Positions 18,356 to 36,279 of a stretch of 38,241 bases of DNA are shown here, in pieces. Made by a program: the position numbers and the translations under genes. The stretch comes from an uncultured bacterium. GTDB taxonomy: Bacteria > DUMJ01. How positions within the stretch are numbered: the stretch's first letter is position 1; the number at the start of each line of letters is the position of its first letter. The notes below the pieces were generated by a model that saw nothing but the letters and a program-made list of their open reading frames with translations, searched no databases and had not been told where the DNA came from. The stretch spans positions 1 through 38,241 of the forward strand of contig CALGNK010000038.1 in assembly GCA_937958695.1 (NCBI GenBank), in the 5' to 3' direction.

Positions 18356-18358
18356 ATG

Positions 18359-20344: not shown

Positions 20345-20358
20345 ATCTTGATACCTCC

Positions 20359-21135
20359 TTATAATCTCCTTAAGTGAAATCCTCCATCTACATTGATAAC
20401 TTCTCCAGTAGAGAATGATAACTTCCCAGAGCAGAGCACTGAGACCGCATTGGCTATATCTTGAGGATAACCCCATCTCTTTATTGGTGTAATACCTTCG
20501 GCAATTAGTCTATCGTACTTTTCTTTTACTACACTAGTCATATCTGTTAATATGATACCAGGCCTAATCTCGTATACGTATATGCCATGATTGGCTAATC
20601 TATCAGCAAAGAGTTTTGTGAGCATGCTTACACCAGCTTTGGATATGCAGTATTCACCACGGTTTGTAGAAGAGGTATATGCAGATATAGAAGATATATT
20701 TATAATGATTGGAGAAGTATCAACTCCAGATTCAACTAACTTTATCATCTCTTTTGCTACAAGTTGGGTCAAAAAGAGCGTCCCTTTTAAGTTTATCCCA
20801 ATAACAAAGTCAAAACTCTCTTCCGTCATCTCTAAGAGATCTTTTCGTTCTTTTGGTGCAACTCCAGCATTGTTAACAAGTATATCGATTCTTCCAAATT
20901 CATTAATAACAGTCTCTACCAATCTTCTCCTGTCATTTCCATCAGCCAAATTTCCCTGGACATAGATTAAAGGGACATTGAGATCCTTTATGGGATCTAG
21001 ATTCTCTTTTATATTTTCTGGAGGAATAATATCAAAGATAGCTATAGCACAACCTTCTTTAGCTAACTGTTGAGCAATAGCATTACCTATTCCTCTTGCC
21101 CCTCCAGTTACTATAGCGGTTCTTCTATCTATCAT
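20359..21135 (-). CDS. Short-chain dehydrogenase/reductase
   Basis: This 258-aa classical SDR has the cofactor motif TGGARGIG (10-17), NNAG (88-91), the catalytic Ser149, Tyr162 and Lys166 (EYCISKAG), and PGIILTDMT after the active site. The acidic residue after the second strand (FDII, Asp35) hints at NAD preference. AGGAGG is well placed before the ATG. It is the first gene after a strong promoter and 14 bp upstream of the flavoprotein start. Likely substrates are a sugar, polyol or sugar acid. Confidence 0.92.
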   Translation of the reverse strand: MIDRRTAIVTGGARGIGNAIAQQLAKEGCAIAIFDIIPPENIKENLDPIKDLNVPLIYVQGNLADGNDRRRLVETVINEFGRIDILVNNAGVAPKERKDLLEMTEESFDFVIGINLKGTLFLTQLVAKEMIKLVESGVDTSPIIINISSISAYTSSTNRGEYCISKAGVSMLTKLFADRLANHGIYVYEIRPGIILTDMTSVVKEKYDRLIAEGITPIKRWGYPQDIANAVSVLCSGKLSFSTGEVINVDGGFHLRRL

Positions 21136-21170
21136 CTTTAAACCCTCCTAGGTTTTTGGTTTTGTTTATT

Positions 21171-21199
21171 ATTATACAGTATACCTATTTACAACGCAA
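21171..21199 (-). promoter_or_regulatory. Promoter of the SDR-flavoprotein-Gfo/Idh operon
   Basis: On the minus strand TTGCGT (21194-21199), a 17-bp spacer and a perfect TATAAT (21171-21176) lie about 36 nt upstream of the SDR start. The three-gene operon can therefore be expressed separately from the transporter operon upstream. Confidence 0.7.
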
Positions 21200-21383
21200 A
21201 ATTCTAACCGTCCGTTAAAGAAGTTGCAGAACATTAAAGAGTAATACTTTATGGGGATGAGTATCTCCTAGAATAAAAGGCAGAATAGGGATGTTTTAGA
21301 TGACTATGCGTATTTACTATGGAACACCATTATAGGCGTATCCCATTGAATAACGCCTTACCAATTTTATACTTCATTAACCC

Positions 21384-21871
21384 TTAAAGATATTCTATAT
21401 CTCTTGTTAATCTTTCTATAATTACCTCTTTCTCATTAAAAAGATATGACAAATCCTTTTGGAGGAATCTTGTGGCTTATCTATTAAAAATGAAGTAATT
21501 CCCAAATTTACTATTGTTTCTGCACCATTATCAAAATAGGTTCTCTGTAAAGCTAGATCTTCAGATATAAATTTAGGACGTGATTTACATGATCTTCTCT
21601 TCCAAAGGGTTGACCATTCTGCCAGTAACATACTATTGCGTCATGATAGAACTAAATTAAATAAAGGTGTTGCAATCCATTCTATTTCTATAGTGTTACC
21701 TTTGACATCTATTCTCTCTGGGATAGAAAACGGTATCTTATCACCCTCATTATCTATAATCCATCCTGTTGTATATTTTGTCTTTCAGATATGGTTATGT
21801 ACAGGATCTATTATTGATATCTTCCCCTCATCAATCTTTACGCCTAAATTATCATTTAATAGTTGTATCAT
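21384..21871 (-). pseudogene. Decayed gene following the amidohydrolase
   Basis: No single intact frame covers this stretch, but coding-like protein runs through all three minus-strand frames. It starts at ATG 21871, 1 bp after the amidohydrolase stop, and reads 28 codons to an in-frame TGA (21785-21787). It continues in the same frame (TGWIIDNEGDKIPFSIPERI), then shifts to a second frame near PLFNLV|YHDAIVCYWQNGQPF. It returns to the first frame (SEDLALQRTYFDNGAE), and shifts again at an A-run to end as NEKEVIIERLTRDIEYL with TAA at 21384-21386. That is at least one nonsense and three frameshift changes over about 160 codons. The phrase PLFNLVYHDA recalls C-terminal parts of some glycoside hydrolases, but I cannot name a family. 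The rest of the window is clean, so real decay is more likely than poor sequence. Confidence 0.65.
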
Positions 21872-21872
21872 C

Positions 21873-22634
21873 TTACTTAAAGAGGCCTAATAACTTTGCA
21901 ATGTTATACCCCATTATCTCTTCTTTTTCTTCTTTAGATAATTCATCATCCAATAATGCGTTATATTTTGCCAATTCTACATGCATAAGTTCAAATGGGG
22001 TATCACTGCCAAAACATACCCTTTTTGACCCAAGTTCTTTAATAGCTTTCAATATAGACTTTGCACCTATATTACTGCCTATTAAGGTAATGTTATTATA
22101 TTCTTTCGCTACCTCTATCATAGCATTACTAAGATCCGGAATACCTGCCCCACCCATATGAACAGCCAGGATTTTAGCCTCAGGAAATATCTTTGCTATC
22201 TTACCTACTCTAAAAGGGTTAGTTCTGTCATACGCATCAGCCCCTACATGAAATGCTATAGGCTTATCTAGTTTTACTATTTCCTCTATTATTGGAAGTG
22301 ATAGAATAGGGTCATCTATATAAAAATAATTTTGTGCTCCGTTAAGTTTAATACCATAAAATCCATAGTCATAGACAAATTCTTTTATCATATCCTTTGC
22401 TTTATTTATACCTAGGTGCGGATTTATCCATCCAAAGCCAATTATTCTCTCAGAGAATCTTTTCATGGATTCATAGACATATCTATTTAACTCATAGGTA
22501 AGCTCACTTATGTATGAAGGTTGAAGCCAAACTATAGCCTTATCTACCTTTGACTTGTCCATTATTATTAGTAATTCTTCTGCACTAATACCTTCGTCGA
22601 TAAAGGTTATATGTGTATCTGCATCTATTATCAT
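21873..22634 (-). CDS. Amidohydrolase-2 family metal-dependent hydrolase, possible sugar lactonase
   Basis: This 253-aa TIM-barrel protein has putative metal or catalytic residues His8 (DADTHIT), His129 (IAFHVG), His159 (AVHMGGAG) and Asp211 (FGSDTP), the pattern of amidohydrolase_2 enzymes. The family includes sugar lactonases and decarboxylases. Next to sugar transporters and several dehydrogenases, a lactonase that opens the product of sugar oxidation is the natural guess (inference). A strong GGAGGAG precedes the ATG. The gene follows the permeases by 16 bp and ends 1 bp before the pseudogene. The usual first HxH pair is reduced to DxH, so the metal site may differ from the best known members. 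Confidence 0.82.
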   Translation of the reverse strand: MIIDADTHITFIDEGISAEELLIIMDKSKVDKAIVWLQPSYISELTYELNRYVYESMKRFSERIIGFGWINPHLGINKAKDMIKEFVYDYGFYGIKLNGAQNYFYIDDPILSLPIIEEIVKLDKPIAFHVGADAYDRTNPFRVGKIAKIFPEAKILAVHMGGAGIPDLSNAMIEVAKEYNNITLIGSNIGAKSILKAIKELGSKRVCFGSDTPFELMHVELAKYNALLDDELSKEEKEEIMGYNIAKLLGLFK

Positions 22635-22650: not shown

Positions 22651-23475
22651 CTATCCTTTTAATCCTGTCATAATTATAGATCTTACAAAGTATCTCTGTG
22701 TCATGAAGAATAGAATTAGAACAGGAATTACGCTTATACAGGAAGCAGCCATAAGTCTAGTCCAGTTCGTAACCTCTATTCCTTGAAATAGTGCTACACC
22801 TATCTGTATAGTATATTTATCCTGTGAATTCAAGAATATGATAGGACCCAAAAAGTCATTCCAAGACCACATGAAAGATAGGACACTTATGGTAGTAACA
22901 GCTGGCTTTGAAAGAGGTAATACTATCCTCCATAGTATCCCAATAGTACTTGCTCCGTCTATTCTAGCTGCATCTTCAAAATCCCCAGGGATAGTTTTGA
23001 AAAATTGAGTTAAGAAGAATATACTATATGCATGAAAAAGAGAACCTGGAACTATTAGCGCTAAATGGTTGTTTATCCATCCAATCTTTCGCATCAATAT
23101 ATAAAGAGGTATCATAGTTACAGCAAAAGGGATCATCATTGTAGCTAATACTAGAGAGAATAGTATATTTTTACCTACAAAGTCTATCTTGGCAAAGGCG
23201 TATCCAGCTAGAGATGCAGTTAATATTCTTCCAAAAACTATCAATAGAGAGATTTTAAAACTATTTAATATAAAAAGTCCAAAGGGTAATCTCTGCCAGA
23301 CCTCTAGATAATTTTGAGTAAAGATTTTTCTAGGGATAAATTCTGGAGGATAAGCGAATTCGGTGCCTGGTTCTTTAAACGAAGTAGAAACCATCCATAA
23401 AAATGGAAGGAGCATCGTTATTGCCCCTAATATCAAAACAATTATAGATAAATAAAAGATTAATCTCGCTTTCAT
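22651..23475 (-). CDS. Carbohydrate ABC transporter permease, MalG/CUT1 type
   Basis: This 274-aa inner-membrane protein has about six membrane segments and the cytoplasmic EAA loop (EDAARIDGAS, 167-176, followed by LPLSKPAV) that docks on the ATPase. It pairs with the upstream MalF-type permease 18 bp away. No ATPase gene is in the window, so a shared MalK/MsmK-type ATPase elsewhere must energise it. Its neighbours suggest an oligosaccharide or glycoside substrate. Confidence 0.94.
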   Translation of the reverse strand: MKARLIFYLSIIVLILGAITMLLPFLWMVSTSFKEPGTEFAYPPEFIPRKIFTQNYLEVWQRLPFGLFILNSFKISLLIVFGRILTASLAGYAFAKIDFVGKNILFSLVLATMMIPFAVTMIPLYILMRKIGWINNHLALIVPGSLFHAYSIFFLTQFFKTIPGDFEDAARIDGASTIGILWRIVLPLSKPAVTTISVLSFMWSWNDFLGPIIFLNSQDKYTIQIGVALFQGIEVTNWTRLMAASCISVIPVLILFFMTQRYFVRSIIMTGLKG

Positions 23476-23493
23476 ATTAGCATCCCTCCATAG

Positions 23494-24363
23494 TTATCCA
23501 TAAAATACCCAGCGCTTTGAGAGGTTAAGTTGTATAAGTGTTAATACGAATATAAAAATAAATAATAACCATGCCATAGCAGAAGCATAAGACATCTTAA
23601 GCTGTTGAAAAGCAACGCTCCACAGATGATATACATAAACAGCAGTTCTATAAGCAGGTGCACCACCAGTCATTACAGCTATAAGTGTATAGACCTGGAA
23701 TGAGCCTATAATAGATGTAACTACTAGGAAGAAAGTTGTTGGAGTCAATAGTGGAAATGTAACATATCTAAAAAGTTGAAATTTAGTAGCTCCGTCTATC
23801 TGGGCTGCTTCGTAAAGCTCGGAAGAAATATTCTGTAAACCTGCTAGGTATATTATCATGTTATAACCCATAGCTTGCCATATGTGGACTATGATCAAAG
23901 ATGGCATAGCCCAATTTAAATCTGAAAGCCAGCCAGGCCCTTGTATACCTAACATTCTTAATATAGAGTTAATAAGACCGAATTCTGGATTATATAACCA
24001 TCTCCAAACCAATCCTATTGCTACTGCAGATGTTACCGTGGGTATATAGTATATCACCCTAAATAAAGTTTCTCCAGGGATATTTCTGTTTAGTAGTAGA
24101 GCTAAAATCAGTCCCATAGTAATAGAAAGAGGAACTCCTACAAAGGTATAATAAAGAGTATTTTTAAATACTAGCCAGAAATTTCCATCTTCAAATAATA
24201 AGTTTCTATAATGTTCTAAGCCAACAAAACCTGAAAATCCTGTGGTAAACTTCCAATCTGAAAAACTTATAAATAGGGAGGCTACTATTGGACCTAAGAT
24301 AAATATAAAAAGTCCTATCATACTTGGAGCAATAAATAAGTAACCTTCTAGATTCCTTCTCAT
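23494..24363 (-). CDS. Carbohydrate ABC transporter permease, MalF/CUT1 type
   Basis: This 289-aa permease has six predicted membrane segments, beginning LEGYLFIAPSMIGLFIF as usual for the family, and the EAA loop YEAAQIDGATKFQLFRYVTFP near residues 184-204. It forms the transport channel with the MalG-type protein. The gene follows the binding-protein gene after a 72-bp gap that holds a strong stem-loop, a layout that usually keeps permease levels below binding-protein levels. Confidence 0.94.
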   Translation of the reverse strand: MRRNLEGYLFIAPSMIGLFIFILGPIVASLFISFSDWKFTTGFSGFVGLEHYRNLLFEDGNFWLVFKNTLYYTFVGVPLSITMGLILALLLNRNIPGETLFRVIYYIPTVTSAVAIGLVWRWLYNPEFGLINSILRMLGIQGPGWLSDLNWAMPSLIIVHIWQAMGYNMIIYLAGLQNISSELYEAAQIDGATKFQLFRYVTFPLLTPTTFFLVVTSIIGSFQVYTLIAVMTGGAPAYRTAVYVYHLWSVAFQQLKMSYASAMAWLLFIFIFVLTLIQLNLSKRWVFYG

Positions 24364-24395
24364 GAAGTAATAAATCCCTCCTTTTAAGTTAAAAA

Positions 24396-24423
24396 TGGCG
24401 GAGTCTATACAAAGACTCCGCCA
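24396..24423 (-). terminator. Stem-loop between binding-protein and permease genes (attenuating terminator)
   Basis: A perfect 10-bp inverted repeat, TGGCGGAGTC (24396-24405) and GACTCCGCCA (24414-24423), has an 8-nt loop. In the minus-strand mRNA the stem is followed by UUUUU (24391-24395), so it fits an intrinsic terminator. Because permease genes lie just downstream in the same direction, it probably acts as a partial terminator or mRNA-stabilising end for the upstream transcript. Confidence 0.8.
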
Positions 24424-24435
24424 GAGTTTTACAAT

Positions 24436-25734
24436 TTATTTGCCCTTTTGGAGCAACTTTGTTACTTCTACTGCAGCTTCTTTACATGCCTGGGATACGG
24501 GTTTTTTGCCTAGAAATGCCTCATCAAATATTCGGCTGAGAAGAGTAGTCATTTCATCGTATTGTGGAACAAGTTCAGTTAGTCTTGTCCTACCTCCGTA
24601 TAGTGCATCAACAAATGCCTTAATATTTTTAGGTGGCCTTCCCTTTGTATCTAGGAATAATGGGCTTTCAGCCACAGATTTGAGAGGTGGCAAGCCTCCT
24701 ATCTCTACAAAGGCTTTAAGTCCTTCCCCTCCGCCTAGGAATTCGATAAGTTTCCAACCTAGGTCAGGGTTTCTAGAATTGAATGGTATAGCATACCCAT
24801 CCCAAGAAACTCTTTCTATGCTTCCTGTTCTCCATCTTGGAACAAGGCAAATATCCCATTCAAAATCTTTTATTGTTCTATAGTTTGGTAAAGCCCAGGA
24901 TCCATTATGCCACATAGCTAATTTGCCACTCATAAATAGCATATCTGAGCCCTGTTCTTTCTCTACTGATGCGGAAGGAGCTACTTTATATTTGGTCCTC
25001 AGACCAATATATAACTCCATAGCTTCTATTGCCTCTGGCGAATCCAATGTACATCTCTTTTTGTCAGGAGATAAGACTGATCCTTTATTCCTCCATATCC
25101 AGCTCTGCCAATATGGCCACCAGGTTCTTATTCCTGTACCATATGTTTCTGGAATGCCATCTCCGTTTTCATCCTTGGTCAGTTTGGTAGCAGCCTTTAA
25201 GAAATCATCAATAGTCCACTTATCTCCCTGAGGAGGCTTTAAGCCAGCTTTATCAAACATAGTTTTATTGTAAAACATGACTACAGAGCCACCTAAATTT
25301 GGTAAACCATACCATCTCCCATTCCAAGTATAAGCTTTAATAGCTGTAGGGTAATAGTCTGTAGTGTTTATAACTTTAGATTTTCTGATTCTATCTGTTA
25401 TATCTAATAAAAGTCCTTCGCTAGCAAATCTTGGGAATGGCTCGTCATCAAACCATGTAGCATCTGGAGGATCCCCGCTTGCTATCATAGTGAGAAGTTT
25501 TGTCCAAGCTTGTCCAGCAGGGGCAAGAATTAACTCTACCTTTACTCCAGGATTTTTTTCTTCAAAGAGAGCTATAATCTTCTTAAGCGCCTCTAATTCT
25601 CCAAGACCACCTCCATAGTCATAATAGAAAGTAACCTTTTTAACCTCCTGAGCAGAAAGAAATACATTACTTCCCCCCCATACCAAGAAACTAATCAGAC
25701 ACACAACTAATACTTTACTAAAAAGCTTTCTCAT
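24436..25734 (-). CDS. Extracellular sugar-binding protein of an ABC transporter (family 1)
   Basis: This 432-aa solute-binding protein delivers a sugar or oligosaccharide to the CUT1 permeases. It has a signal peptide (about 1-28, likely cut at LSA|QE) with no lipobox, so it may be free or held in another way. The mature part has the family pattern KKIIALFEEKNPGVKVELI near residue 45 and WYGLPNLGGSVVMFYNKTMF in the middle. A strong AAAGGAGG precedes the ATG. It follows the GH30-like gene by 29 bp. Many aromatic residues would suit carbohydrate stacking; the ligand cannot be named. Confidence 0.93.
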   Translation of the reverse strand: MRKLFSKVLVVCLISFLVWGGSNVFLSAQEVKKVTFYYDYGGGLGELEALKKIIALFEEKNPGVKVELILAPAGQAWTKLLTMIASGDPPDATWFDDEPFPRFASEGLLLDITDRIRKSKVINTTDYYPTAIKAYTWNGRWYGLPNLGGSVVMFYNKTMFDKAGLKPPQGDKWTIDDFLKAATKLTKDENGDGIPETYGTGIRTWWPYWQSWIWRNKGSVLSPDKKRCTLDSPEAIEAMELYIGLRTKYKVAPSASVEKEQGSDMLFMSGKLAMWHNGSWALPNYRTIKDFEWDICLVPRWRTGSIERVSWDGYAIPFNSRNPDLGWKLIEFLGGGEGLKAFVEIGGLPPLKSVAESPLFLDTKGRPPKNIKAFVDALYGGRTRLTELVPQYDEMTTLLSRIFDEAFLGKKPVSQACKEAAVEVTKLLQKGK

Positions 25735-25763
25735 TACTCTTTCCCTCCTTTATAAAAGATTTT

Positions 25764-27185
25764 TTAGTTATTTATTATTACTAGCTCCCCAAAAAATGTA
25801 GTTACTGAACGTGGAGGAGCTAAGTACTTAATTTCTCCATCTTTCGTAGTATAATTACTTATACTCTTGTATCTTTCCTCTTTTGAAGTTCGATAAACAT
25901 AAAAAGAGTTAATTTCGCTTCCTAAGATTTTTATGTTTAACTCTTTCTCAACTTCAGATAGATTTAACACCACAAAGTTATCCTTATTTTTAGTTCCATT
26001 ACTAGAAAAGGCTATTATTGCTATATCTGAGTCATCTGTAAATGTTCTAACAACTGCCATGCCGGGTTGTCCAGCCCTAGATACCTGCTTATAATAGTAA
26101 TATCCGTCCTCTATGGAATAAGTGCCATCTTCGTAAACTCTAAAAGCAGTTCCTGGATTGGGATCTCCTTTAAACCACTGAGACGGGCGTTGTATGCAAG
26201 CCCAAGGTATATAACCATTAACCTTGGCAGAGTATATATGATTTTTAATCTCAAATATGAAATCTACATCCATTTTGCTCCAACTACTAGATGTTACCCA
26301 ACTATGTAATTCAGGTTTCTTTTCCCTTAAGATATCATTCCCCACACTTCTATAATCGCCATATCCTCTCCCAAACCTAGGGTTATAAAAACCATGAGAA
26401 GTAATAAGACCAAGAGAAGCTACTGCTTCAGGATCATCTGCTATACTAGAAGCATATCCCCACTCGCTAAATCTATACCAATTGCTAGTTTCTCCCGGGG
26501 TTACCCCTATGTCTTTCAGATTATTTGCATCTAATATTTCCCTTACTAATTTTACAAATTCAACCACCTGTTCTGGAGGCCAATACATGTTATAATCATG
26601 TCCTTGTTCCCAATTAGGAGAATTCCCATCTTTAGGCCATCTATGAAAATCTTCCCCTTCATTATGGAGAGAAATATATCTTACAGGTAGCCCCTCTACT
26701 TCTATTAAATACTTAGCCCAGGAAACCATATACTTTGCACATTCAATCTTATAGTTTGGATCTAGATCTCGACCCCTAATAAACTTTTGCTTTGTCATCC
26801 AACCAGGAGGCCCATAAAGAGTAACTATAATTTTTAAATCTTCTCCTCTAGCCTGGGTCCTTTTTAATCCTTCTTTTGCAAAATATCTCATCCATTTAGT
26901 GGTAGTAGTATGATCATAATTAGATAGATCTATACTATATCCCTTAGATATCTTATTAGCTTCTTGATGAAACGGATCCAAAAACATTTTTATAATACTA
27001 GGCTTTAATCCATCCTCTCCAAATATTAGATCTAAGATCTTCTGCCTATCTTCTTCTCTTAGTATACCGAATCCTCCATAATCTTGGGGATAACTATTAT
27101 AGTCTGGAGTCTGTGAGGTTTCTACATAGTTTACACCAAACCCATCCCAATCACTTATCTTTCTAGAAAAGTCTACATAAATCAT
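25764..27185 (-). CDS. Intracellular clan GH-A glycoside hydrolase, GH30-like
   Basis: This 473-aa protein has a (beta/alpha)8 barrel (about 1-350) followed by a beta-sandwich-like C-terminal part that reads VVLNLSEVEKELNIKILG and ends with PRSVTTFFGEL, as in GH30 enzymes. The acid/base candidate is Glu176 in SLHNEGE, after the Asn typical of clan GH-A. The place where GH30 enzymes carry the nucleophile Glu (W-x-T/S-E) reads SWVTSSSW here, with Ser299 in place of Glu, which is unusual. There is no signal peptide, so it would act on imported oligosaccharides. AAGGAGG lies 10 nt before the ATG, and ATGA overlaps the gntR stop. The family call is moderate and the activity unknown. Confidence 0.72.
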   Translation of the reverse strand: MIYVDFSRKISDWDGFGVNYVETSQTPDYNSYPQDYGGFGILREEDRQKILDLIFGEDGLKPSIIKMFLDPFHQEANKISKGYSIDLSNYDHTTTTKWMRYFAKEGLKRTQARGEDLKIIVTLYGPPGWMTKQKFIRGRDLDPNYKIECAKYMVSWAKYLIEVEGLPVRYISLHNEGEDFHRWPKDGNSPNWEQGHDYNMYWPPEQVVEFVKLVREILDANNLKDIGVTPGETSNWYRFSEWGYASSIADDPEAVASLGLITSHGFYNPRFGRGYGDYRSVGNDILREKKPELHSWVTSSSWSKMDVDFIFEIKNHIYSAKVNGYIPWACIQRPSQWFKGDPNPGTAFRVYEDGTYSIEDGYYYYKQVSRAGQPGMAVVRTFTDDSDIAIIAFSSNGTKNKDNFVVLNLSEVEKELNIKILGSEINSFYVYRTSKEERYKSISNYTTKDGEIKYLAPPRSVTTFFGELVIINN

Positions 27186-27886
27186 TTCTTATATACCTCC
27201 TTAAGTTTCTCTTTCCATACTTCATAGCTCTTTTCAATAGCTTCTTCTATCTCTAAAGGGTCCTTCTTCTTGATAGCCTCAAATATCCTCCTATGATCCT
27301 CTACCGCTCTTTGAGCATAAATCTTTGTTGTCTTCTCTATAGATGGTTTAAGAAGCTCAAGAATAATATGACCAACCTTTAATACAAGAGAGTTTTTAGT
27401 AGCTTTTAATATGGCAAGGTGAAATTCTATTTCTCTATCTCCAAGTTCATCAAGTCTTCCCTTCTTAACTGCCTCCTCATGTTTTTTAAGGGCTTCTTCT
27501 ATATTATTAATGTCACTTTCAGTCATCTTCTTTGCCGCAAGTTTAGTATAACCAACTTCAAAAAGATGTCTAAGTTCTAATAAATTTTCACTCTCTCCTT
27601 TCTGAAATATTAGAGAAAATATAAGGGGATCAACAGCATTTTCATTTATAGATTCAGATATATAAGTTCCATCCCCATGTTTTACTGTAACAACACCTAA
27701 AGCCTTTAACATCTTTATTGCTTCTCTTACTGATGGTCTACCTATCCCCAACTTCTCACTTAACTCTATCTCAGATGGTAATCTATCCCCTGGCTTAAGC
27801 TCTCCAGTTAGTAACTTTTCTTTTATTTTATTAACTACTATATTAACTACTGATTCTTTATTAACTGGTTCACCAAAATCTATCAT
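27182..27886 (-). CDS. GntR-family (FadR/FCD) transcriptional regulator
   Basis: This is probably the repressor of the island. The N-terminal winged helix (about residues 10-78) reads LKPGDRLPSEIELSEKLGIG then SVREAIKMLKALGVV. The C-terminal all-helical FCD domain has the ligand/metal motifs EIEFHLAI and EDHRRIFEAI. A longer frame begins at 27913, but that ATG has no ribosome binding site and lies only about 13 nt from the predicted transcription start. The ATG at 27886 follows AGAGGGG by 4 nt and is preferred (234 aa). It is the first gene of the leftward operon, so it is probably autoregulated. FCD regulators usually bind sugar acids or other organic acids, consistent with an acidic inducer. 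Confidence 0.92.
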   Translation of the reverse strand: MIDFGEPVNKESVVNIVVNKIKEKLLTGELKPGDRLPSEIELSEKLGIGRPSVREAIKMLKALGVVTVKHGDGTYISESINENAVDPLIFSLIFQKGESENLLELRHLFEVGYTKLAAKKMTESDINNIEEALKKHEEAVKKGRLDELGDREIEFHLAILKATKNSLVLKVGHIILELLKPSIEKTTKIYAQRAVEDHRRIFEAIKKKDPLEIEEAIEKSYEVWKEKLKEVYKK

Positions 27887-27932
27887 CTTTCCCCTCTGTA
27901 AGATATCATTCATAATATGTCTTACATCTTAT

Positions 27933-28043: not shown

Positions 28044-28072
28044 TTGACAATCCAATTACTCTGTGATATCTT
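28044..28072 (+). promoter_or_regulatory. Distal promoter of the SIS-to-RpiR operon
   Basis: A perfect TTGACA (28044-28049), a 17-bp spacer and TATCTT (28067-28072) with a TGn extension (28064-28066) make this promoter. The 9-mer ATCTTATAT overlapping the -10 (28068-28076) also occurs at the -10 of the divergent gntR promoter (27926-27934), a possible shared regulator site. Confidence 0.6.
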
Positions 28073-28160: not shown

Positions 28161-28778
28161 ATGGATAAGAAGGAAATGATTGAAATAGCCTTAAATGTTT
28201 GGGAGATGGAAAGTAGGGCTTTAAAAAACTTACCAAATGTAATAAATGAGGAATCCTTAGTTGAAGCAGTAGAGATGATTATTGATTGTAAAAATAGAAA
28301 TGGCAAGGTCTTAACTTTAGGCCTTGGGACTTCTATGGCTGTGGCTAAAAAGATTTCACATACTTTAAGTTGTGTTGAGATACCTTCTCTATTTTTATCA
28401 GCAGGAGATGCTGTCCATGGAGGATTAGGTGCACTACAGAAGAATGATCTAATTATTGCTATTTCCAAAGGTGGGAATACTCAGGAGATTTTAAATTTGT
28501 TACCTTCTATAAAGAAAAAGGGGGTTAAGATTATATCAGTCACTGAAAATGAAGACTCAATACTAGCTAGAAATAGCGATTTAATCCTAAAATATAGAAT
28601 AGAAAGAGAGGCAGACAAATTTAATATGTTGGCTACAGTTAGTAGCATTTCAGTAATTGCAATCTTTGATGCCATAGCTGTGATTATTATGAATTATACA
28701 GGTTATACAAAAGAACAGTTCGCCGTTATTCATCCAGGAGGAGCAGTTGGTGAAAGGCTACTAAAGGGGGAGAAATAA
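28161..28778 (+). CDS. SIS-domain sugar-phosphate isomerase, KpsF/GutQ-like without CBS domains
   Basis: This 205-aa protein is a single SIS domain with GLGTSMAVAKKI (54-65), SAGDAVHGGLG (80-90), ISKGGNTQEIL (101-111) and the KpsF-type HPGGAVGERL (191-200). KpsF and GutQ interconvert ribulose 5-phosphate and arabinose 5-phosphate and normally carry two C-terminal CBS domains, absent here. I start it at ATG 28161, 6 nt after AAAGGTG; a TTG at 28146 is less likely. It is the first gene of the rightward sugar operon, only 4 bp before the zinc dehydrogenase, so it should act on a sugar phosphate made in this pathway. Confidence 0.85.
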   Translation: MDKKEMIEIALNVWEMESRALKNLPNVINEESLVEAVEMIIDCKNRNGKVLTLGLGTSMAVAKKISHTLSCVEIPSLFLSAGDAVHGGLGALQKNDLIIAISKGGNTQEILNLLPSIKKKGVKIISVTENEDSILARNSDLILKYRIEREADKFNMLATVSSISVIAIFDAIAVIIMNYTGYTKEQFAVIHPGGAVGERLLKGEK

Positions 28779-28782
28779 AGTT

Positions 28783-29826
28783 ATGAAAATGAAAGCTGTA
28801 TTTTTTGAGGGTCCAGAAAGATTGTTGTTAGAAGAGGTAGAAGTTCCAAGATGTGAAGAGGCCGGGATTCTTGTCAGGGTAGAGGCTTGTGGGATATGTG
28901 GTTCTGATATCAGAAATTATCATTCAGGATTAAAGGATAATGTAACCCATCAAATAATGGGTCATGAGATAGCAGGGATTGTAGTAGAAGTTGGGAAAAG
29001 AGTAAATAAATTTAAAGAGGGAGACAGGATAGCTATTGCTCCAGATGTGAGTTGTGGTGAATGCTTCTATTGTAAAAGAGGTTGGGTAAACTTATGCATT
29101 AATCATAAGATGATAGGTACACATTTCCCAGGTGGATTTGCTCAGTACATCTATTTATCTAATGAAATTTTATCTAGAGGAATTGTAAACTTTATTCCTA
29201 AAGATGTATCCTTTGAATCTGCCACTATTTCAGAACCAGCCTCCTCTGTTATTGCGTGTCAAGAGAGGAATAATATTACCTTGGGAGATACTGTAGTAAT
29301 AATCGGGGATGGACCTATAGGTTGCTTACATCTTGAGGTGGCTAGGGCTAGAGGAGCAGAAAAGATAATAATGGTTGGGCTAAAGAGGCTTGAAATGGCT
29401 AAATCTTTTAACCCAGATTATCTGATAGATGCCAGCTCTCAAGATCCTGTAAAAGAAGTCTTGAAGATAACAGATGGTTTAGGGGCAGATGTAGTTATTG
29501 TGGCAAATCCTGTTAAAGAAACTCAGGAGCAAGGTATAGAGATGGTAAGAAAGAGAGGAAAGATTATACTTTTTGGTGGAGTATCTAGAAGCGATCCTAT
29601 GACACTGCTAAATAGCAATCTTATACATTACAACGAGTTAGATGTTGTTGGTTCATTTTCTTATACTCCAATTTCTCATGAGATGGCTTTAAGATTAATC
29701 TCCCAAGGAAAGATCAATGCAGAGAGATATATTACTGACATTGTTCCTCTAGAAAGGATAGTGGAGGGCTTTACCCTTGCTGAACAGGGTAAGGCGATGA
29801 AGGTGATTGTTAAACCTTGGGATTAG
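28783..29826 (+). CDS. Zinc-dependent medium-chain dehydrogenase (sorbitol/threonine dehydrogenase-like)
   Basis: This 347-aa NAD(P)-dependent alcohol or polyol dehydrogenase has the catalytic zinc residues Cys39 (CGICGSD), His61-Glu62 (GHE) and Glu151 (SEPAS), the structural zinc cysteines 91, 94, 97 and 105, and the dinucleotide motif GDGPIG (175-180). All ligands are intact. It is the second gene in the sugar operon, so it is expected to oxidise a sugar alcohol, sugar or sugar phosphate, or to reduce a ketose. Confidence 0.92.
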   Translation: MKMKAVFFEGPERLLLEEVEVPRCEEAGILVRVEACGICGSDIRNYHSGLKDNVTHQIMGHEIAGIVVEVGKRVNKFKEGDRIAIAPDVSCGECFYCKRGWVNLCINHKMIGTHFPGGFAQYIYLSNEILSRGIVNFIPKDVSFESATISEPASSVIACQERNNITLGDTVVIIGDGPIGCLHLEVARARGAEKIIMVGLKRLEMAKSFNPDYLIDASSQDPVKEVLKITDGLGADVVIVANPVKETQEQGIEMVRKRGKIILFGGVSRSDPMTLLNSNLIHYNELDVVGSFSYTPISHEMALRLISQGKINAERYITDIVPLERIVEGFTLAEQGKAMKVIVKPWD

Positions 29827-29854: not shown

Positions 29855-31135
29855 ATGTATGAGATAGACAGAAAGTTAGAAGAATTAGAAAGAAATAAAT
29901 CCTCAATTAATATAGGTCTTATTGGAGCTGGACAGATGGGGACTGACATCGTATCTCAAGTTAAGCAGATGCTAGGACTTGATATACCTGTAGTTGTAGA
30001 TATAAATCTGGATTCTGCATATAACGCATATAAAATTGCAGGTATAGATAACGTTGTAAGAGAAGAGGATCCTGCTAGGGCAGAAAGGGCTATGAGGGAA
30101 GGTAAGAAGGTGATAGCTACTAATTATCAGGTAGCGACTAGGAGTAATAATATACAAGTAGTTATAGATGCTACAGGTGTTCCAGAAATGGGAGCATTAA
30201 TATCTCTAGACTGTATAAATTATAAAAAGCATATAGTAATGATGAATGTCGAATGTGATGTGACTATAGGACCTATCCTTAGAAAAATGGCAAAAAATGC
30301 TGGAGTAATCTATTCTTGGGCTGGAGGAGACGAGCCAGCAGCAATTCTAGAACTTTATAGATTTGCAAAGGCTTTGGGGTTTAGGATTATTGCTGCAGGA
30401 AAGGGTAAAAATAATCCTCTAGATATATATGCAACTCCGGATAAATTAGAGGCTCAGGCAAGAAAGAGGCAGATGAGTCCAAAGATGCTCTGTGAATTTG
30501 TAGATGGTTCAAAGACTATGGTAGAGATGTCTGCAGTATCCAATGCTACAGGTCTTATCCCTGATATAAGAGGAATGCATGGTCCTAAGTGTAATAGGGA
30601 TGAACTATTAAAGGTCTTCTGTAGAAAAGACCAGGGAGGGATTTTAGATAGAGAGGGTATAGTGGATTATGCTATAGGGGATGTGAATCCCGGGGTATTT
30701 TTGATAGTAACAACTGATAGTGAAAGACTCAGGAGTTCCTTAATTCAGAGAGATATGGGATACGGTCCCAACTATTTACTATTTAGACCGTATCATCTAT
30801 GTAGTATAGAGACACCTCTTACATGTGCTCAGATTGTCTTATATGGAGAGTCAAGCGGATACTCAAAGAGACTTGTTTCAGAGTGTATTGCTGTAGCTAA
30901 AAGGGACATAAAAGCAGGTGAAGTATTGGACGATATTGGAGGTTATTATTATAGAGCTTGCATAGAACTATACGAGGTATCAAAAAGGGAGAGATTTCTC
31001 CCTGCAGGTCTAGCTAAAGGAGCCAAGTTAAAAGTTGACGTAAGACAAGACGAACCATTGACCTATGATATGGTAGAGTTGCCTGAGAGTTTACTACTTC
31101 ATTTAAGGATGCTCCAGGATAAACTCTTAGGATAA
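29855..31135 (+). CDS. Homoserine-dehydrogenase-like NAD(P) oxidoreductase with SAF domain
   Basis: This 426-aa protein has an N-terminal Rossmann domain (GAGQMG, 24-29), a homoserine-dehydrogenase-like middle with IDATGVPEMG and YSWAGGDEPAAILELYRFAKALG, and a C-terminal SAF domain (about 340-420) opening CIAVAKRDIKAGEVLDDIGG. This architecture matches the group annotated as predicted homoserine dehydrogenase (COG4091), whose members often sit in sugar or sugar-acid operons rather than in amino-acid pathways. I expect oxidation or isomerisation of a short or branched sugar derivative. AGAAAGGAG lies upstream of the ATG. The substrate is unknown. Confidence 0.82.
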   Translation: MYEIDRKLEELERNKSSINIGLIGAGQMGTDIVSQVKQMLGLDIPVVVDINLDSAYNAYKIAGIDNVVREEDPARAERAMREGKKVIATNYQVATRSNNIQVVIDATGVPEMGALISLDCINYKKHIVMMNVECDVTIGPILRKMAKNAGVIYSWAGGDEPAAILELYRFAKALGFRIIAAGKGKNNPLDIYATPDKLEAQARKRQMSPKMLCEFVDGSKTMVEMSAVSNATGLIPDIRGMHGPKCNRDELLKVFCRKDQGGILDREGIVDYAIGDVNPGVFLIVTTDSERLRSSLIQRDMGYGPNYLLFRPYHLCSIETPLTCAQIVLYGESSGYSKRLVSECIAVAKRDIKAGEVLDDIGGYYYRACIELYEVSKRERFLPAGLAKGAKLKVDVRQDEPLTYDMVELPESLLLHLRMLQDKLLG

Positions 31136-31164
31136 AATTGATAAATAAAGTAGGAGGTATTATT

Positions 31165-32436
31165 GTGACAGAGATAGAGGTTTCAGAAACTAAAGATTAC
31201 TTTATCAAGGATGGTAGAAGATTCTTCTACCTTGCCGATACCTGTTGGAGTGCGTTTACCAATATAAGCTATGAAGAGTGGGAATATTATTTGGACTATA
31301 GAAGGATGCAAGGGTTTAACGCACTTCAGATAGATTTATTACCACAGTGGGATAGGAGTGAATCCGATTATTATATAAACCCATTTGAGGTTTTGCCTGA
31401 TGGAGGTTGGAATTTTAATAAAATAAATGAAGATTACTTTAATAAAGTAGAGGATATGATTAAAGTTGCGGTAGAGAGGGATTTTATTCCTGCTCTAGTA
31501 GTTTTGTGGTGTAACTATGTAAAAGGGACTTGGGGCTCAAAGATAGATCCTTCTAAGATTATGCCTTTAAGCAAAGTAGAAGATTATGTTGGTTATATAA
31601 CTGAGAGATACAAAAGGTACAATCCTATCTTTATAATAAGTGGTGATACAAACTTTGAAACAGAAGAATCTATAGGATATTACCTTACCGCCCTTGATAC
31701 TGTAAAGAGATTATCTCCAGAGTCATTAACTACAATGCATCTCTGTGGAGGTTTTTGGGAGTTACCAGAGGTCTTTGTAAAATCGCCTAATCTTGATTTT
31801 TATATGTATCAATCCGGACATTCCAGAGAGAATCAGCATCTTTCTTATGAGTTAGCACAAAAGTTCTATCAGATGCCGGTAAAAAGACCGATAGTAAATG
31901 GAGAACCTTGCTATGAAGGTCACGGATATGGATATAGATTTGGGAGGTTTAATAATTTTGATGTAAGGAGAGCTATTTGGCAGAGTCTTCTCTCTGGGGC
32001 AAAGGCAGGAGTTACTTATGGAGCACATGGTATATGGTCTTGGCATAAGAAGGGAAAAAGATTTAGAAGTGAAGAATTCTCTAGGATGCCATTTGTATGG
32101 CAGACTGCTCTCAGATTTCCTGGTGCATTTGATACTGCCTATGCAAAGTGGATCTTTGAAATATATAATCTTTTTGATATAGAACCTGCAAATGAATTAC
32201 TTATCACTGATACTACAGAGATAAGAGTCTCTAAGAGTGATAGCAGGATAGTTATTTATACCCCTTATAACTGGAATATAAGTCTAAAGATAGATGCAAG
32301 TTTATACAATTGGGAAGGGATAGAGCTTGAAGAAAGAAGGATTTTTAGACCAGAGATAGAAATTTTTCAAGAACATTCTATAATAAAGATGAGTGAATTT
32401 AATAGTGATATATTAATAATTGGTACTAAATCTTAA
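31165..32436 (+). CDS. DUF4038/GH140-like glycoside hydrolase (apiosidase-like)
   Basis: The product (423 aa from the preferred start) has the DUF4038 N-terminal signature FFYLADTCWSAF then YRRMQGFNALQID, a barrel with FIISGDTNFE (Asp161) and NGEPCYEGHGYG (Glu247), and a C-terminal beta domain from about residue 340. Asp161 and Glu247 are plausible acid/base and nucleophile. Characterised GH140 members release apiose from plant rhamnogalacturonan-II; other DUF4038 proteins are uncharacterised. The GTG start at 31165 follows AGGAGG (31152-31157) by 7 nt; an in-frame TTG at 31138 has no such site. No signal peptide is present, so it acts in the cytoplasm. Its place between dehydrogenases and an isomerase/kinase pair implies it releases the sugar they process. 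Confidence 0.78.
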   Translation: MTEIEVSETKDYFIKDGRRFFYLADTCWSAFTNISYEEWEYYLDYRRMQGFNALQIDLLPQWDRSESDYYINPFEVLPDGGWNFNKINEDYFNKVEDMIKVAVERDFIPALVVLWCNYVKGTWGSKIDPSKIMPLSKVEDYVGYITERYKRYNPIFIISGDTNFETEESIGYYLTALDTVKRLSPESLTTMHLCGGFWELPEVFVKSPNLDFYMYQSGHSRENQHLSYELAQKFYQMPVKRPIVNGEPCYEGHGYGYRFGRFNNFDVRRAIWQSLLSGAKAGVTYGAHGIWSWHKKGKRFRSEEFSRMPFVWQTALRFPGAFDTAYAKWIFEIYNLFDIEPANELLITDTTEIRVSKSDSRIVIYTPYNWNISLKIDASLYNWEGIELEERRIFRPEIEIFQEHSIIKMSEFNSDILIIGTKS

Positions 32437-32454: not shown

Positions 32455-33858
32455 ATGCCACTTACTTTTGCTCTAATTGTAGGAAATAGGGGATTTTTCC
32501 CAGATTCACTGGCAGTTGAAGGAAGAGAAAGGATGATTAAAGTATTAAAAGAAGAGGGTTTTGATGTTATATGCCCTTCTAGTGAGGAAACAAAATTAGG
32601 AACGGTAGAGACCTGGGAAGATGCAAAGAGATGCGCAGAACTCTTTAAGAGGAATAGAGAAAAGATAGATGGAGTAATAGTTTCTCTACCTAATTTTGGC
32701 GATGAAAAAGGGGTAGCTAATACTCTAAGACTTAGCGAGTTAGACGTTCCTATATTGGTTCAGGCGTTTAGAGACGATTTGTCAGCCTTGGACTTACAGC
32801 ATAGAGGTGATTCTTTCTGTGGGAAGATATCGGTATGTAATAACCTGTATCAGTATAAGATACCTTTCTCTTTAACTAGCCTACATACAGTAAATCCAGA
32901 AGAGGATAGTTTTAAGGAAGACTTAAGTTGGTTTGCTGGAGTTTGTAGAGTAGTAAAGGGACTTAAAAATCTAAAACTTGGTGCCATAGGTGCTAGACCT
33001 GGAGCTTTTAATACAGTAAGATTTTCAGAAAAGATATTAGAAGCTTATGGGATTTCTGTTGAGACTATAGACTTGTCAGAGATCATATCAAAGGTTAATA
33101 GGCTCAGCTCTTCTGACCCTAGAGTGAAAGAACAGATTGAAAGAATAAAGTGCTATGCTAACGTAAGTAATGTTCCAGAAGACAGGTTAGAAGTATTAGC
33201 AAAGTTTCTAACGGTAGTAGAGGATTGGATAAGAGAAAACGATATAAAGGCGACTGCGATTCAATGTTGGACATCTATAGAGTATAATCTTGGCATTATG
33301 CCATGCTTGGTAATGAGTATTATGAGTGAAAGTTTGTCACCATCTGCTTGTGAAGTAGATATAACTGGTGCTCTTTCTATGTATATACTACAACTTGCCT
33401 CTCAAACTCCTTCTGCTTTGGTAGACTGGAATAACAATTATGGTTATGAAGAAGAGAAGTGTGTACTCTTCCATTGTGGGAATTTCCCTAGGTCTATACT
33501 GGATATAAAAGAGGTAAAATATGGAGATATTATAGGACAAACAGTTGGCTTTGATAATGCATACGGAGCCTGTGCTGGAAGGATAAAAGAAGGTTTTCTA
33601 ACTTTTGCTAGGATTTCAACCGATGATAGTCTTGGTAAGATTAAGGCATATGTAGGAGAAGGCGAGTTGACATCAGATCGGGTAGAAACATTTGGGGCTT
33701 CTGGTGTGGCTAAGATTAGAAACTTGCAGAGTCTTATGCATTATATATGTGAAAATGGATTTGAACATCATGTGGCTATAAATAGATCCCATACTGCGAA
33801 GGTTATCTACGAAGCGCTTAACAAGTATTTAAGGATTGATACATATTGGCACAAATGA
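32455..33858 (+). CDS. L-fucose/D-arabinose isomerase family protein
   Basis: This 467-aa protein belongs to the FucI/AraA-fold sugar isomerases (COG2407 type), which are metal-dependent aldose-ketose isomerases. Candidate metal ligands are Glu300 (ACEVDITG), Asp324 (LVDWNNN) and His439 (FEHHVA). The 24-residue gap between the Glu and Asp equals that in E. coli FucI (Glu337, Asp361). It is shorter than classic FucI (about 590 aa), as usual for this branch. The gene is followed directly by the FGGY kinase, so the ketose it makes is probably phosphorylated next. Which aldose is used cannot be told from sequence. Confidence 0.88.
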   Translation: MPLTFALIVGNRGFFPDSLAVEGRERMIKVLKEEGFDVICPSSEETKLGTVETWEDAKRCAELFKRNREKIDGVIVSLPNFGDEKGVANTLRLSELDVPILVQAFRDDLSALDLQHRGDSFCGKISVCNNLYQYKIPFSLTSLHTVNPEEDSFKEDLSWFAGVCRVVKGLKNLKLGAIGARPGAFNTVRFSEKILEAYGISVETIDLSEIISKVNRLSSSDPRVKEQIERIKCYANVSNVPEDRLEVLAKFLTVVEDWIRENDIKATAIQCWTSIEYNLGIMPCLVMSIMSESLSPSACEVDITGALSMYILQLASQTPSALVDWNNNYGYEEEKCVLFHCGNFPRSILDIKEVKYGDIIGQTVGFDNAYGACAGRIKEGFLTFARISTDDSLGKIKAYVGEGELTSDRVETFGASGVAKIRNLQSLMHYICENGFEHHVAINRSHTAKVIYEALNKYLRIDTYWHK

Positions 33859-33868
33859 GGAGAGTAGA

Positions 33869-35389
33869 ATGTCTTACCTTTTAGGTTTAGATGTAGGCAC
33901 TACTGGTTGTAAAGCCATAGTCCTTGATCCAGAAGGAGAGGTAAAGAGTTATGGTTTTCAAGAATACGAAGTAGTATACCCTAAAATACAATGGGCGGAA
34001 CAATCTCCAGAAACGGTATGGAATAGTGTAAAGAAGGTAGTAAAGGAAGCTATAGAAAAGGCTAATGTTAAGATGATAAAGGCTATAGGGCTTTCTGTCC
34101 AAGGAGATGCTATCATACCGGTAGATAAGAATATAGAACCGCTTTATCCTGCTATATTGGGAATGGATTATAGAAGTAATAAAGAGGCGGAGGAATGCTC
34201 TGAAGTTTTTGGGGACAGATATCTATTTGAGAAGACTGGGATGAGGCCGCATCCTATGAATTCTTTAACGAAAATCTTATGGTTAAAGAGACATAAGAGA
34301 GACGTGTATAATAAGACCTACAAATTTATGACCTATGCAGACTTTATTCTTGCCAAACTTGGAGTAGACTCAAAAGATCCTGTAATAGACTTTACTATGG
34401 CATCAAGGACTATGGCTTTTGACTTAAAAAAGAGAGAGTGGAGCCAAGAGATTTTGAGTAAGTTAGATATAGACGAATCCTTGTTTTCAAGGCCATTACC
34501 TTCTGGAAGGATTGTTGGAGAAATATCAGCTAAATTGGCTGATGAGCTTAATATAGATAGAGGGACTTTATTAGTTACCGGAGGACATGATCAGACTTGT
34601 GCTGGGATCGGCGCTGGATTAGTTAAGGAAGGGATATCTCTGGATTCTCATGGTTCTGCGGAGGTAATTTCCACAGCATTAAATAAGCCTTATCTTAATG
34701 AACTGATGTACGAGAGTTATTATCCATGTTATATACACGCTAAAGAAAATATGTATTTTACTTTTGCCCTTCTCCATGTTAGTGGAATAATCTTCAGATG
34801 GTATAGGGATAATTTCGCTTTTGAAGAGATCAAGATAGCTAAAAATCAGGGAAGAGACCCTTATGATCTAATTACTGAAAGATTAAGTAGAGAGCCTTCC
34901 TGCCTTTTCGTCCTTCCACATTTTAATGGTTCTGGAACTCCTTACTGTGATTTGACCTCGAAAGGTGCTATTTTAGGCCTTAATCTTAAGGTAGATAAAT
35001 ATGATATAGCCAAGGCTATAATGGAAGGTCTCACTTATGAGCTGAAGATAAATATAGAGAGGATGAAACTATGCGGTATAGACTTAGGGGAGGTGAGGTG
35101 TGTAGGTGGTGCATCTAAGTCTTCATTCTGGCTTCAACTAAAAGCAGATATATTAGATATGCCAATATATACCCTTAAGGTAAAAGAATCCGCATGTTTA
35201 GGTTCAGCTATCTTAGCAGGATATGCTGTAGGGATTTATAATTCAATAGAAGAAGGGGTAGAAAGAGCTGTTAAGATAGATAAAGAATACATCCCTGATG
35301 GGGATATGAGCAAGATATATAAAGAGAAATATAATATATACAGAGAGATTTATCATATCTTGAAACCCTTAAATCAAAAGATAGTTTAA
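33869..35389 (+). CDS. FGGY-family carbohydrate kinase
   Basis: This 506-aa kinase is of the xylulokinase/fuculokinase type. The N-terminal phosphate-binding segment is LGLDVGTTGCKA (5-16), the catalytic base Asp241 lies in GGHDQTCAGIGAG, and the C-terminal ATP site has VGGASKSSFWLQLKADIL and ESACLGSAILAG. GAGGAGAG (33857-33864) overlaps the isomerase stop and sets ATG 33869 as the start; the frame upstream only overlaps the isomerase gene. The isomerase-kinase pair points to a pentulose, methylpentulose or branched ketose. Apulose kinases of apiose catabolism are also FGGY proteins. Confidence 0.92.
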   Translation: MSYLLGLDVGTTGCKAIVLDPEGEVKSYGFQEYEVVYPKIQWAEQSPETVWNSVKKVVKEAIEKANVKMIKAIGLSVQGDAIIPVDKNIEPLYPAILGMDYRSNKEAEECSEVFGDRYLFEKTGMRPHPMNSLTKILWLKRHKRDVYNKTYKFMTYADFILAKLGVDSKDPVIDFTMASRTMAFDLKKREWSQEILSKLDIDESLFSRPLPSGRIVGEISAKLADELNIDRGTLLVTGGHDQTCAGIGAGLVKEGISLDSHGSAEVISTALNKPYLNELMYESYYPCYIHAKENMYFTFALLHVSGIIFRWYRDNFAFEEIKIAKNQGRDPYDLITERLSREPSCLFVLPHFNGSGTPYCDLTSKGAILGLNLKVDKYDIAKAIMEGLTYELKINIERMKLCGIDLGEVRCVGGASKSSFWLQLKADILDMPIYTLKVKESACLGSAILAGYAVGIYNSIEEGVERAVKIDKEYIPDGDMSKIYKEKYNIYREIYHILKPLNQKIV

Positions 35390-35400
35390 AAGGAGGAGGT

Positions 35401-36279
35401 ATGGGATTAGAACTAAAAGAGGTAGGGAAAAGAATACCTCACACACTTTTAGTAAGGTTAGAGGCATTATATGATACCTTAAAATCTGCTGAGAAAAAAG
35501 CAGTAGATCTATTAATCAAAGAACCAGAGTATTTTGTGAACTCAACTATTGTAGAAACAGCTGAAAAGGCAGGCTGTAGCGAAGCCACATTAGTAAGATT
35601 AGCTAGGAAATTAGGTTTTGAAGGATATCCAGCCCTTAAGAATTACTTACTAGAATCATCTAGAGACAATCCTGTAGAACTTTACGAAGGGATTAAAAGG
35701 GAAGATTCTATAGAAGATATTGTAAATAAGATATTTGAATCCTCAATACAAACACTTAAAGATACATTAAATTCCATAAGCATAGAAGATTATATAAAAG
35801 CGGTAGATTGTATCTCTAGTGCCAGTAAGATTCTGTTTATAGGTGTAGGAGATGCCTATCCAGTAGCTCTATCAGGTTGTCAGAGATTCTTAAGAATAGG
35901 ATTTACCGCCTATGCTTCTGCTGATTTTGATACTCAACTGATCTATACTACCCAGCTTACCGCTAACGATGTAGTAATTGCCATCTCTCATTCTGGAAGG
36001 ACTAAGACCATATTAGACGTAGTAAAATATGCAAGGAATTTAGGTATAAAGATAATTTCTATAACGAATTTCCCTCTATCTCCTTTAGCAAAACACTCAG
36101 ATATTGTTCTTTTAACTGCTGCTTTTACAGGTCAAGTAGGAAAAGAGATTATTACTAAGAGAATAGCTGAGATGTGTATCTTAGAGAGTTTATTTATTAG
36201 TGTGCTATTAAAGAGAGAAGAAATATTTGCCTCTTCTTTAGAAAAGTCTAACTCTGCTGTAAACATTAATAAGCTTTAG
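35401..36279 (+). CDS. RpiR/MurR-family transcriptional regulator with SIS domain
   Basis: This 292-aa regulator has an N-terminal helix-turn-helix domain (about 14-88; AEKKAVDLLIKEPEYFVNST and CSEATLVRLARKLGFEGYPA) and a C-terminal SIS sugar-phosphate-binding domain (about 125-260; ILFIGVGDAYPVA, AISHSGRTKTIL). Such proteins sense a phosphosugar, here probably the product of the kinase 11 bp upstream. The ribosome binding site AGGAGGAGGT runs up to the ATG, giving a short 4-nt spacing from the first AGGAGG. It is the last gene of the rightward operon and ends 39 bp from the convergent oppC-like gene with no clear terminator between. Confidence 0.92.
   Translation: MGLELKEVGKRIPHTLLVRLEALYDTLKSAEKKAVDLLIKEPEYFVNSTIVETAEKAGCSEATLVRLARKLGFEGYPALKNYLLESSRDNPVELYEGIKREDSIEDIVNKIFESSIQTLKDTLNSISIEDYIKAVDCISSASKILFIGVGDAYPVALSGCQRFLRIGFTAYASADFDTQLIYTTQLTANDVVIAISHSGRTKTILDVVKYARNLGIKIISITNFPLSPLAKHSDIVLLTAAFTGQVGKEIITKRIAEMCILESLFISVLLKREEIFASSLEKSNSAVNINKL

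Follow-up and report, generated by a model that had tools for sequence, protein, structure and literature searches.

The open reading frame at 31165..32436 on the forward strand encodes a 423-residue glycoside hydrolase of the DUF4038 family (PF13204), which is likely an intracellular apiosidase standing outside the clade of characterised enzymes. Within the stretch of 38,241 nucleotides analysed here (the window), the protein was confirmed to be related to GH140 and, as judged from its sequence, unsecreted. Its gene is the fourth of a seven-gene operon with gaps of 4-29 bp, preceded by genes for a SIS-domain protein, a Zn-dependent dehydrogenase and a type II DXR (DXR-II, also called DRL) and followed by those for a FucI-like isomerase, an FGGY kinase and an RpiR-type regulator. 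The link to DXR-II is the novel part of this locus. Our best reading is that a cytoplasmic apiosidase feeds apiose to the isomerase and the kinase; the genes beside DUF4038 may bring branched apiose into metabolism, and DXR-II among them comes from an isoprenoid-making family.

The reading frame is real and begins with GTG at 31165, 7 nt after a Shine-Dalgarno sequence AGGAGG read directly at 31152..31157 (+); starting instead at the in-frame TTG 31138 would lengthen the protein by 9 residues. The protein matched the Pfam family PF13204 'Apiosidase' at E 3e-90 over positions 2-319 of the 320 in the profile, scoring 303.5 bits where the cut-off is 26.5. Its best solved relatives by sequence were 8T9W, deposited as 'Apiosidase' (1.5e-31), BT1012 (3KZS/5MSY; 1.6e-18) and 4QFU (5.2e-13), and a profile search against the PDB returned the same three at 3.6e-46, 9.6e-31 and 8.8e-28, respectively; a fourth sequence match at E 0.062 was taken as chance. 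Identity to the solved GH140 enzymes is 26-27%. An AlphaFold2 model built from a three-row alignment reached a pLDDT of 62.7, with 215-326 below 50, and Foldseek ranked GH140 structures first for this weak model. The first-pass annotation, which had called the protein GH140-like and free of a signal peptide, is borne out on both points: the 11 residues ahead of Tyr12 hold no hydrophobic stretch, as read directly from the sequence.

In a tree of 51 rows, some with long branches, the window protein fell into a clade of 35 rows (support 100/100) with proteins from Paenibacillus-like genomes, Listeria, Limosilactobacillus and the genomes G176, G281, G396 and G397. BT1012, 8T9W and 4QFU formed a separate clade of 10 rows (100/98), and the window protein did not group with these characterised enzymes. 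Phylogeny had been put forward as a check on the original assignment, which would fail if the protein grouped with a DUF4038 clade whose function is known and different; no such grouping was seen, and the protein sits in its own clade beside that of BT1012 and 8T9W. We know of no characterised member of the intracellular 35-row clade. The acid pair named earlier, Asp161 and Glu247, is correctly numbered for the GTG start and is present in the alignment as the putative catalytic pair, invariant in 35/35 rows of its own clade and in 10/10 rows of the clade with BT1012 and 8T9W. Among the six rows that belong to neither clade, the first site is Asp in two and Glu in four, and the second is Glu in all six. 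The pair aligns with D156/E244 of 8T9W and with chain residues D167/E264 of BT1012, which we take to be D187/E284, its catalytic pair; the spacing of 97 between the aligned Asp and Glu of BT1012 is consistent with D187/E284.

Full equivalence with the characterised GH140 enzymes is spoken against by 16 positions that are invariant in the intracellular clade and differ from the characterised one, for example N245 two residues before Glu247, and by the 36 of 57 positions conserved in the characterised clade that the window protein keeps (20-42 in the six PF13204 rows belonging to neither clade). The reading frame starts 9-14 residues before the Tyr12 column in 25 of the 35 clade rows; longest-ORF starts are longer in the other 10, three of which carry a hydrophobic 12-mer upstream (mean 1.8-1.9). 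Strongly hydrophobic starts (2.3 or more) were found in 5/7 non-PDB rows of the BT1012 clade. We read the 35-row clade as unsecreted from these predicted starts. The window protein shares with BT1012 and 8T9W the PF13204 domain, the Asp/Glu pair and the best sequence and fold matches, the latter from a weak model, but differs from them in its 27% identity, its separate clade, a start unlike a signal peptide and its place in a sugar operon.

Close relatives are common in some groups. At E <= 1e-60, DUF4038 matches were found in 30/344 genomes of one order, presumably Paenibacillus-like, and at E <= 1e-40 in 3/50 and 1/17 genomes of two phyla, the order and both phyla having each been picked because one member had already matched. 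In a mixed set of 386 genomes, 15 matched at 1e-15 and five were close at 1e-60 or better: G176, G281, G328, G351 and G000, the window's own genome. The nearest named relatives, at 65% and 58%, come from two Dictyoglomus-type MAGs and were the sole loci in a scan of genome contigs with a single-protein query, for which an alignment query would serve better; a scan of viral contigs found no DUF4038 relative. Only two of the genomes searched for relatives share the genus of the window, the others having no more than its domain in common with it; with the Dictyoglomus-type matches, this makes Dictyoglomota the probable source of the window. The earlier placing of the characterised GH140 enzymes in gut Bacteroidetes was too narrow, since 8T9W is by its title a GH140 apiosidase from a mangrove metagenome and a GH140 gene is reported from Paenibacillus polymyxa A18 in the part of PMC6465253 cited here, where the enzyme of gut bacteria is termed an endo-apiosidase.

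Several of these relatives lie beside genes that resemble those for apiose catabolism. According to the portion of PMC13001218 on which we draw, the AplK/AptA/AptB cluster of E. coli SE15 goes with growth on D-apiose and is described as having no isomerase, in place of which its authors suggest two oxidoreductases. In Listeria monocytogenes NCTC7974, in a record filed as a plasmid, one gene run comprises a LacI regulator, a FucI-like isomerase, two transketolase halves, a 'glycerol kinase', PTS genes and DUF4038; compared with the E. coli SE15 proteins, the halves share 45% identity with AptA and 39% with AptB, and the kinase 36% with AplK. Full-length kinases of the Paenibacillus-like genomes are 39-41% identical to AplK, and their transketolase halves 48-51% and 37-40% to AptA and AptB. 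Among 31 clade loci, which leave out those of the window, Listeria and L. fermentum and several of which are short contigs, AptA/AptB-like genes were found in the fetched stretch of 8 and not found in that of 23, FucI-like genes in 8, PTS permeases in 19 and GH1 6-phospho-beta-glucosidases (50% identity or more) in 4; these counts are not independent because the loci are related. Split AptA-like transketolases are frequent in some genomes, with several in G176, and nearness to AptA/AptB is therefore less specific than it appears. The L. fermentum locus has deoxyribose and nucleoside genes in place of apiose-like ones, and at other clade loci DUF4038 is paired with Gfo/Idh, EutH or PTS genes. 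The new context proposed for the family in the first-pass annotation is accordingly not unique, given relatives in Listeria and the Paenibacillus-like order, some beside apiose-catabolism-like genes, and the data neither demonstrate nor require a new specificity. Nucleoside-hydrolase-like genes (IU_nuc_hydro or Sde182_NH-like), perhaps for another furanosidase, were also seen near DUF4038 in five genomes (L051, L053, L111, L112 and L168).

The placement of the gene in a monosaccharide-processing operon, between a SAF-domain dehydrogenase and an isomerase/kinase pair, holds: a Fucose_iso_C isomerase (32455..33858, +) and an FGGY kinase (33869..35389, +) follow it. The isomerase grouped in a four-row clade (100/98) with proteins of G176, G281 and G396, with an unsure outgroup placement, and all four genomes carry an intracellular DUF4038 protein and DXR-II. 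Matches to it at 1e-12 occurred in 30/372 genomes. It shares Fucose_iso_C with the FucI/SftI-like isomerases and scored 129 bits with the SftI model, but this is far under the SftI cut-off of 700, and E. coli FucI and AraA are very distant. Members of its subfamily lie in clusters with AplK/AptB/AptA-like genes in G226, G055 and G396 and apart from such genes elsewhere, for example on G000:C11; because of this nearness it is a candidate D-apiose isomerase. In a tree with several long branches, the kinase belongs to a seven-row clade (100/99) with kinases from six other genomes (G176, G281, G394, G396, G397 and G402) that are encoded next to DXR-II or in a cluster with it. Kinases of the AplK type fall in another clade together with GlpK, and the window kinase, at 23% identity to AplK, is not one of them; a DXR-II-linked kinase of G313 also lies outside its clade. 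No AptA or AptB was found among the window ORFs, and the split transketolase is absent from the locus and present instead on another contig of the same genome (C29). The window locus resembles the E. coli SE15 apiose cluster (PMC13001218, as far as cited) in its isomerase/kinase logic, and relatives in Listeria and Paenibacillus-like genomes have such genes near DUF4038, but it differs in its non-AplK kinase, its DXR-II and a split transketolase encoded elsewhere in the genome.

The gene directly upstream (29855..31135, +), labelled a SAF-domain dehydrogenase in the first-pass annotation, does encode a SAF domain; what that label missed is its identity as DXR type II, evident from PF21135 (1.6e-64) and Brucella DRL (3UPY; 3.6e-107). 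All ten residues checked agree with Brucella DXR-II (G121, E174, F178, K191, K193, T229, H250, R320, Y322 and V351); they were picked from those discussed in the part of PMC3847144 used here, which lists further sites. The window enzyme differs from the Brucella one in lying in a glycoside operon of a genome that keeps the ordinary DXR-I. DXR-I was found in 3/3 genomes of the genus, that of the window included, and DXR-II in 1/3. In the 386-genome set, DXR-II was present in 3/5 genomes with close DUF4038 compared with 15/386 overall (p 0.0005, or 0.007 when the window genome is left out). In the phylum chosen for G281, 7/50 genomes have it, among them each of the 3 that carry a close DUF4038 protein (p 0.002; 0.013 without G281). 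DXR-II adjoins AptA/AptB-like genes in G176 and G394 and an AptB-like gene in G392, and a minimal set SorC-ADH-RPE-FGGY-DRL occurs in G402, on a stretch with no isomerase and in a genome with no close DUF4038.

DXR-II was also observed among other genes. Acetoin-dehydrogenase-like E1alpha, E1beta and E2 genes follow it in four annotated alphaproteobacterial records with the checked residues (L182, L184, L194 and L196; two Rhizobium, one Sinorhizobium and one Aminobacter), and PTS-glucitol genes accompany it in L181 and L183 (Listeria innocua and Ligilactobacillus) and in L184. A fifth record, L193, has neither the full residue set nor acetoin-dehydrogenase-like genes, and L191 and L195 are unannotated. 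These associations suggest a catabolism of 2-C-methylerythritol via MEP, with DXP leading to acetyl-CoA and glyceraldehyde 3-phosphate. In Deinococcus aquaticus (L192), a DXR-II-like protein that has only 4/10 of the checked residues is encoded in the midst of sugar-nucleotide genes (rfbF, rfbC).

The operon is completed by a SIS-domain protein (28161..28778, +) of the KpsF type, probably a sugar-phosphate isomerase, which matched the solved SIS protein 3FXA at 2e-64; by the Zn-dependent medium-chain dehydrogenase (28783..29826, +), whose best solved matches are threonine 3-dehydrogenases, then a ketose reductase and a sorbitol dehydrogenase, and which is a candidate apulose reductase; and by the RpiR-type regulator, its last gene (35401..36279, +). 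A promoter-like site TTGACA-17-TATCTT precedes the operon at 28044..28072 (+), a consensus match only, the 34 such sites in the region being close to the shuffled mean of 30.2.

We consider it probable that the DUF4038 protein works in the cytoplasm as a GH140-type beta-D-apiosidase, releasing apiose from small plant apiosides once these have been imported. The substrate, the import route and every downstream step are our inference, as is action on terminal apiose, BT1012 itself being called an endo-apiosidase. The operon would then convert free apiose into a phosphorylated intermediate of central metabolism. In the route we propose, the FucI-like isomerase would turn D-apiose into achiral D-apulose, the Zn-dehydrogenase would reduce C2 of apulose to give 2-C-hydroxymethyl-D-erythritol (L-apiitol), with the same hand as MEP, the FGGY kinase would form its 4-phosphate, and DXR-II would oxidise and rearrange this to a pentulose 5-phosphate, as in the conversion of MEP to DXP (the DXR reaction in reverse, with CH2OH for CH3). 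By our own derivation, apulose has no stereocentre and the isomerase together with a ketone reductase could therefore set the hand that DXR-II needs; the route would use four operon enzymes and be redox-neutral overall. UDP-apiose synthase, which makes apiose by coupled oxidation and aldol cleavage (PMC5324594, in the part cited), would be a precedent for the rearrangement, and the set in G402 would fit a pentulose-phosphate product. Two variants were rejected: reducing D-apiose directly would lead to an apiitol phosphate with the opposite hand to MEP, by stereochemistry derived by hand, and DXR-II acting on apulose 4-phosphate would, by reasoning only, give no linear product. The DXR-II leg of the apiose route is put forward tentatively. 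In its favour stand the ten matching residues, the ordinary DXR of all three genus genomes beside a DXR-II in one, the kinase clade linked to DXR-II, the isomerase clade from genomes with DUF4038 and DXR-II, the association of close DUF4038 with DXR-II in the 50-genome phylum and the minimal set of G402. It is opposed by the threonine dehydrogenases as best matches of the dehydrogenase, by the set on C29, by the non-AplK kinase, by the lack of AptA/AptB in the window and by the want of an isomerase and a close DUF4038 in G402; the SIS protein has no role in it, nor do two enzymes encoded in relatives, a second kinase and a 2-hydroxyacid dehydrogenase. The wider proposal, in which DXR-II provides an additional way to catabolise apiose by turning branched apiitol phosphate into a linear pentulose 5-phosphate, and DXR-II enzymes are generally catabolic 'un-branching' enzymes with isoprenoid MEP formation secondary, is likewise doubtful.

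It is possible, if unlikely, that the apiosidase and isomerase supply apulose in trans to the known pathway of AplK/AptA/AptB-like enzymes, and that dehydrogenase, kinase and DXR-II, though in the same operon, are a separate module acting on a different branched polyol, for instance 2-C-methyl-D-erythritol. The genome does encode such a set on G000:C29 (AptB 57%, AptA 59% and AplK 48% to Paenibacillus-like genes), and G396 carries both types of set, so that the cell may have no need of another apiose route, or the two sets may serve different substrates. The module of G402, with neither DUF4038 nor isomerase nearby, and DXR-II beside PTS-glucitol or acetoin-dehydrogenase-like genes in named bacteria point the same way; on the other side, all genes concerned lie in one tight operon, and isomerase, kinase and DXR-II of related clades recur together with DUF4038 in G176, G281 and G396. 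DXR-II serving isoprenoid synthesis, with an accidental operon link, is in our judgement very improbable: the ten checked residues would suit it, but isoprenoid synthesis as the main role of the window enzyme was set aside because DXR-I is present, DXR-I is in all three genus genomes and DXR-II in one, and DXR-II occurs among sugar genes in several distant bacteria.

For the hydrolase itself, the same fold and mechanism acting on a furanoside other than beta-D-apiose is an unlikely reading, to which the protein's own clade, with its private invariant positions and low identity to solved GH140, the nucleoside-hydrolase-like partners in G176, G281, G396 and G397 and the different contexts at many clade loci lend weight; the acid pair and many further residues held in common with GH140 and the apiose-like gene linkage in Listeria and Paenibacillus-like genomes weigh against it. 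More improbable still is that the clade was made for PTS-phosphorylated glycosides, as phospho-apiosidases of which the window copy would be an ABC-fed version: PTS permeases and GH1 6-phospho-beta-glucosidases do occur at the clade loci (19/31 and 4/31), but the Pfam scan, which covered 35 proteins of the window, detected no PTS component, and ABC transporter genes flank the operon on both sides.

Under the reading of a cytoplasmic apiosidase, the locus would supply an apiosidase candidate whose source is probably thermophilic, and would point to a large intracellular GH140-related clade that is partly tied to apiose-like genes in Bacillota. It also makes directly testable the natural role of DXR-II, found in bacteria that already have the ordinary DXR. 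Among titles and the openings of abstracts, in a literature collection that leaves out most subscription papers, nothing was found on intracellular GH140, apiitol-phosphate catabolism or catabolic DXR-II.

A second apiose-like locus was observed on G000:C29 (L217, 8714-13534), where AptB-AptA-like genes are divergent from genes for a DUF5060-DUF4038-DUF5605 protein and an AplK-like kinase. In the window, a group on the reverse strand (22651..27913, -) diverges from the operon and encodes a GntR regulator, a GH59-like protein and three components of an ABC transporter (its binding protein and two permeases), a possible importer. The GH59-like gene (25764-27185, -) lies between the GntR regulator and the ABC sugar transporter, and a sequence search at E 0.001 returned no solved structure related to its product. 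Beside the ABC permeases, at 17129-22634 (-), lie Gfo/Idh, FAD-binding, short-chain dehydrogenase and amidohydrolase genes.
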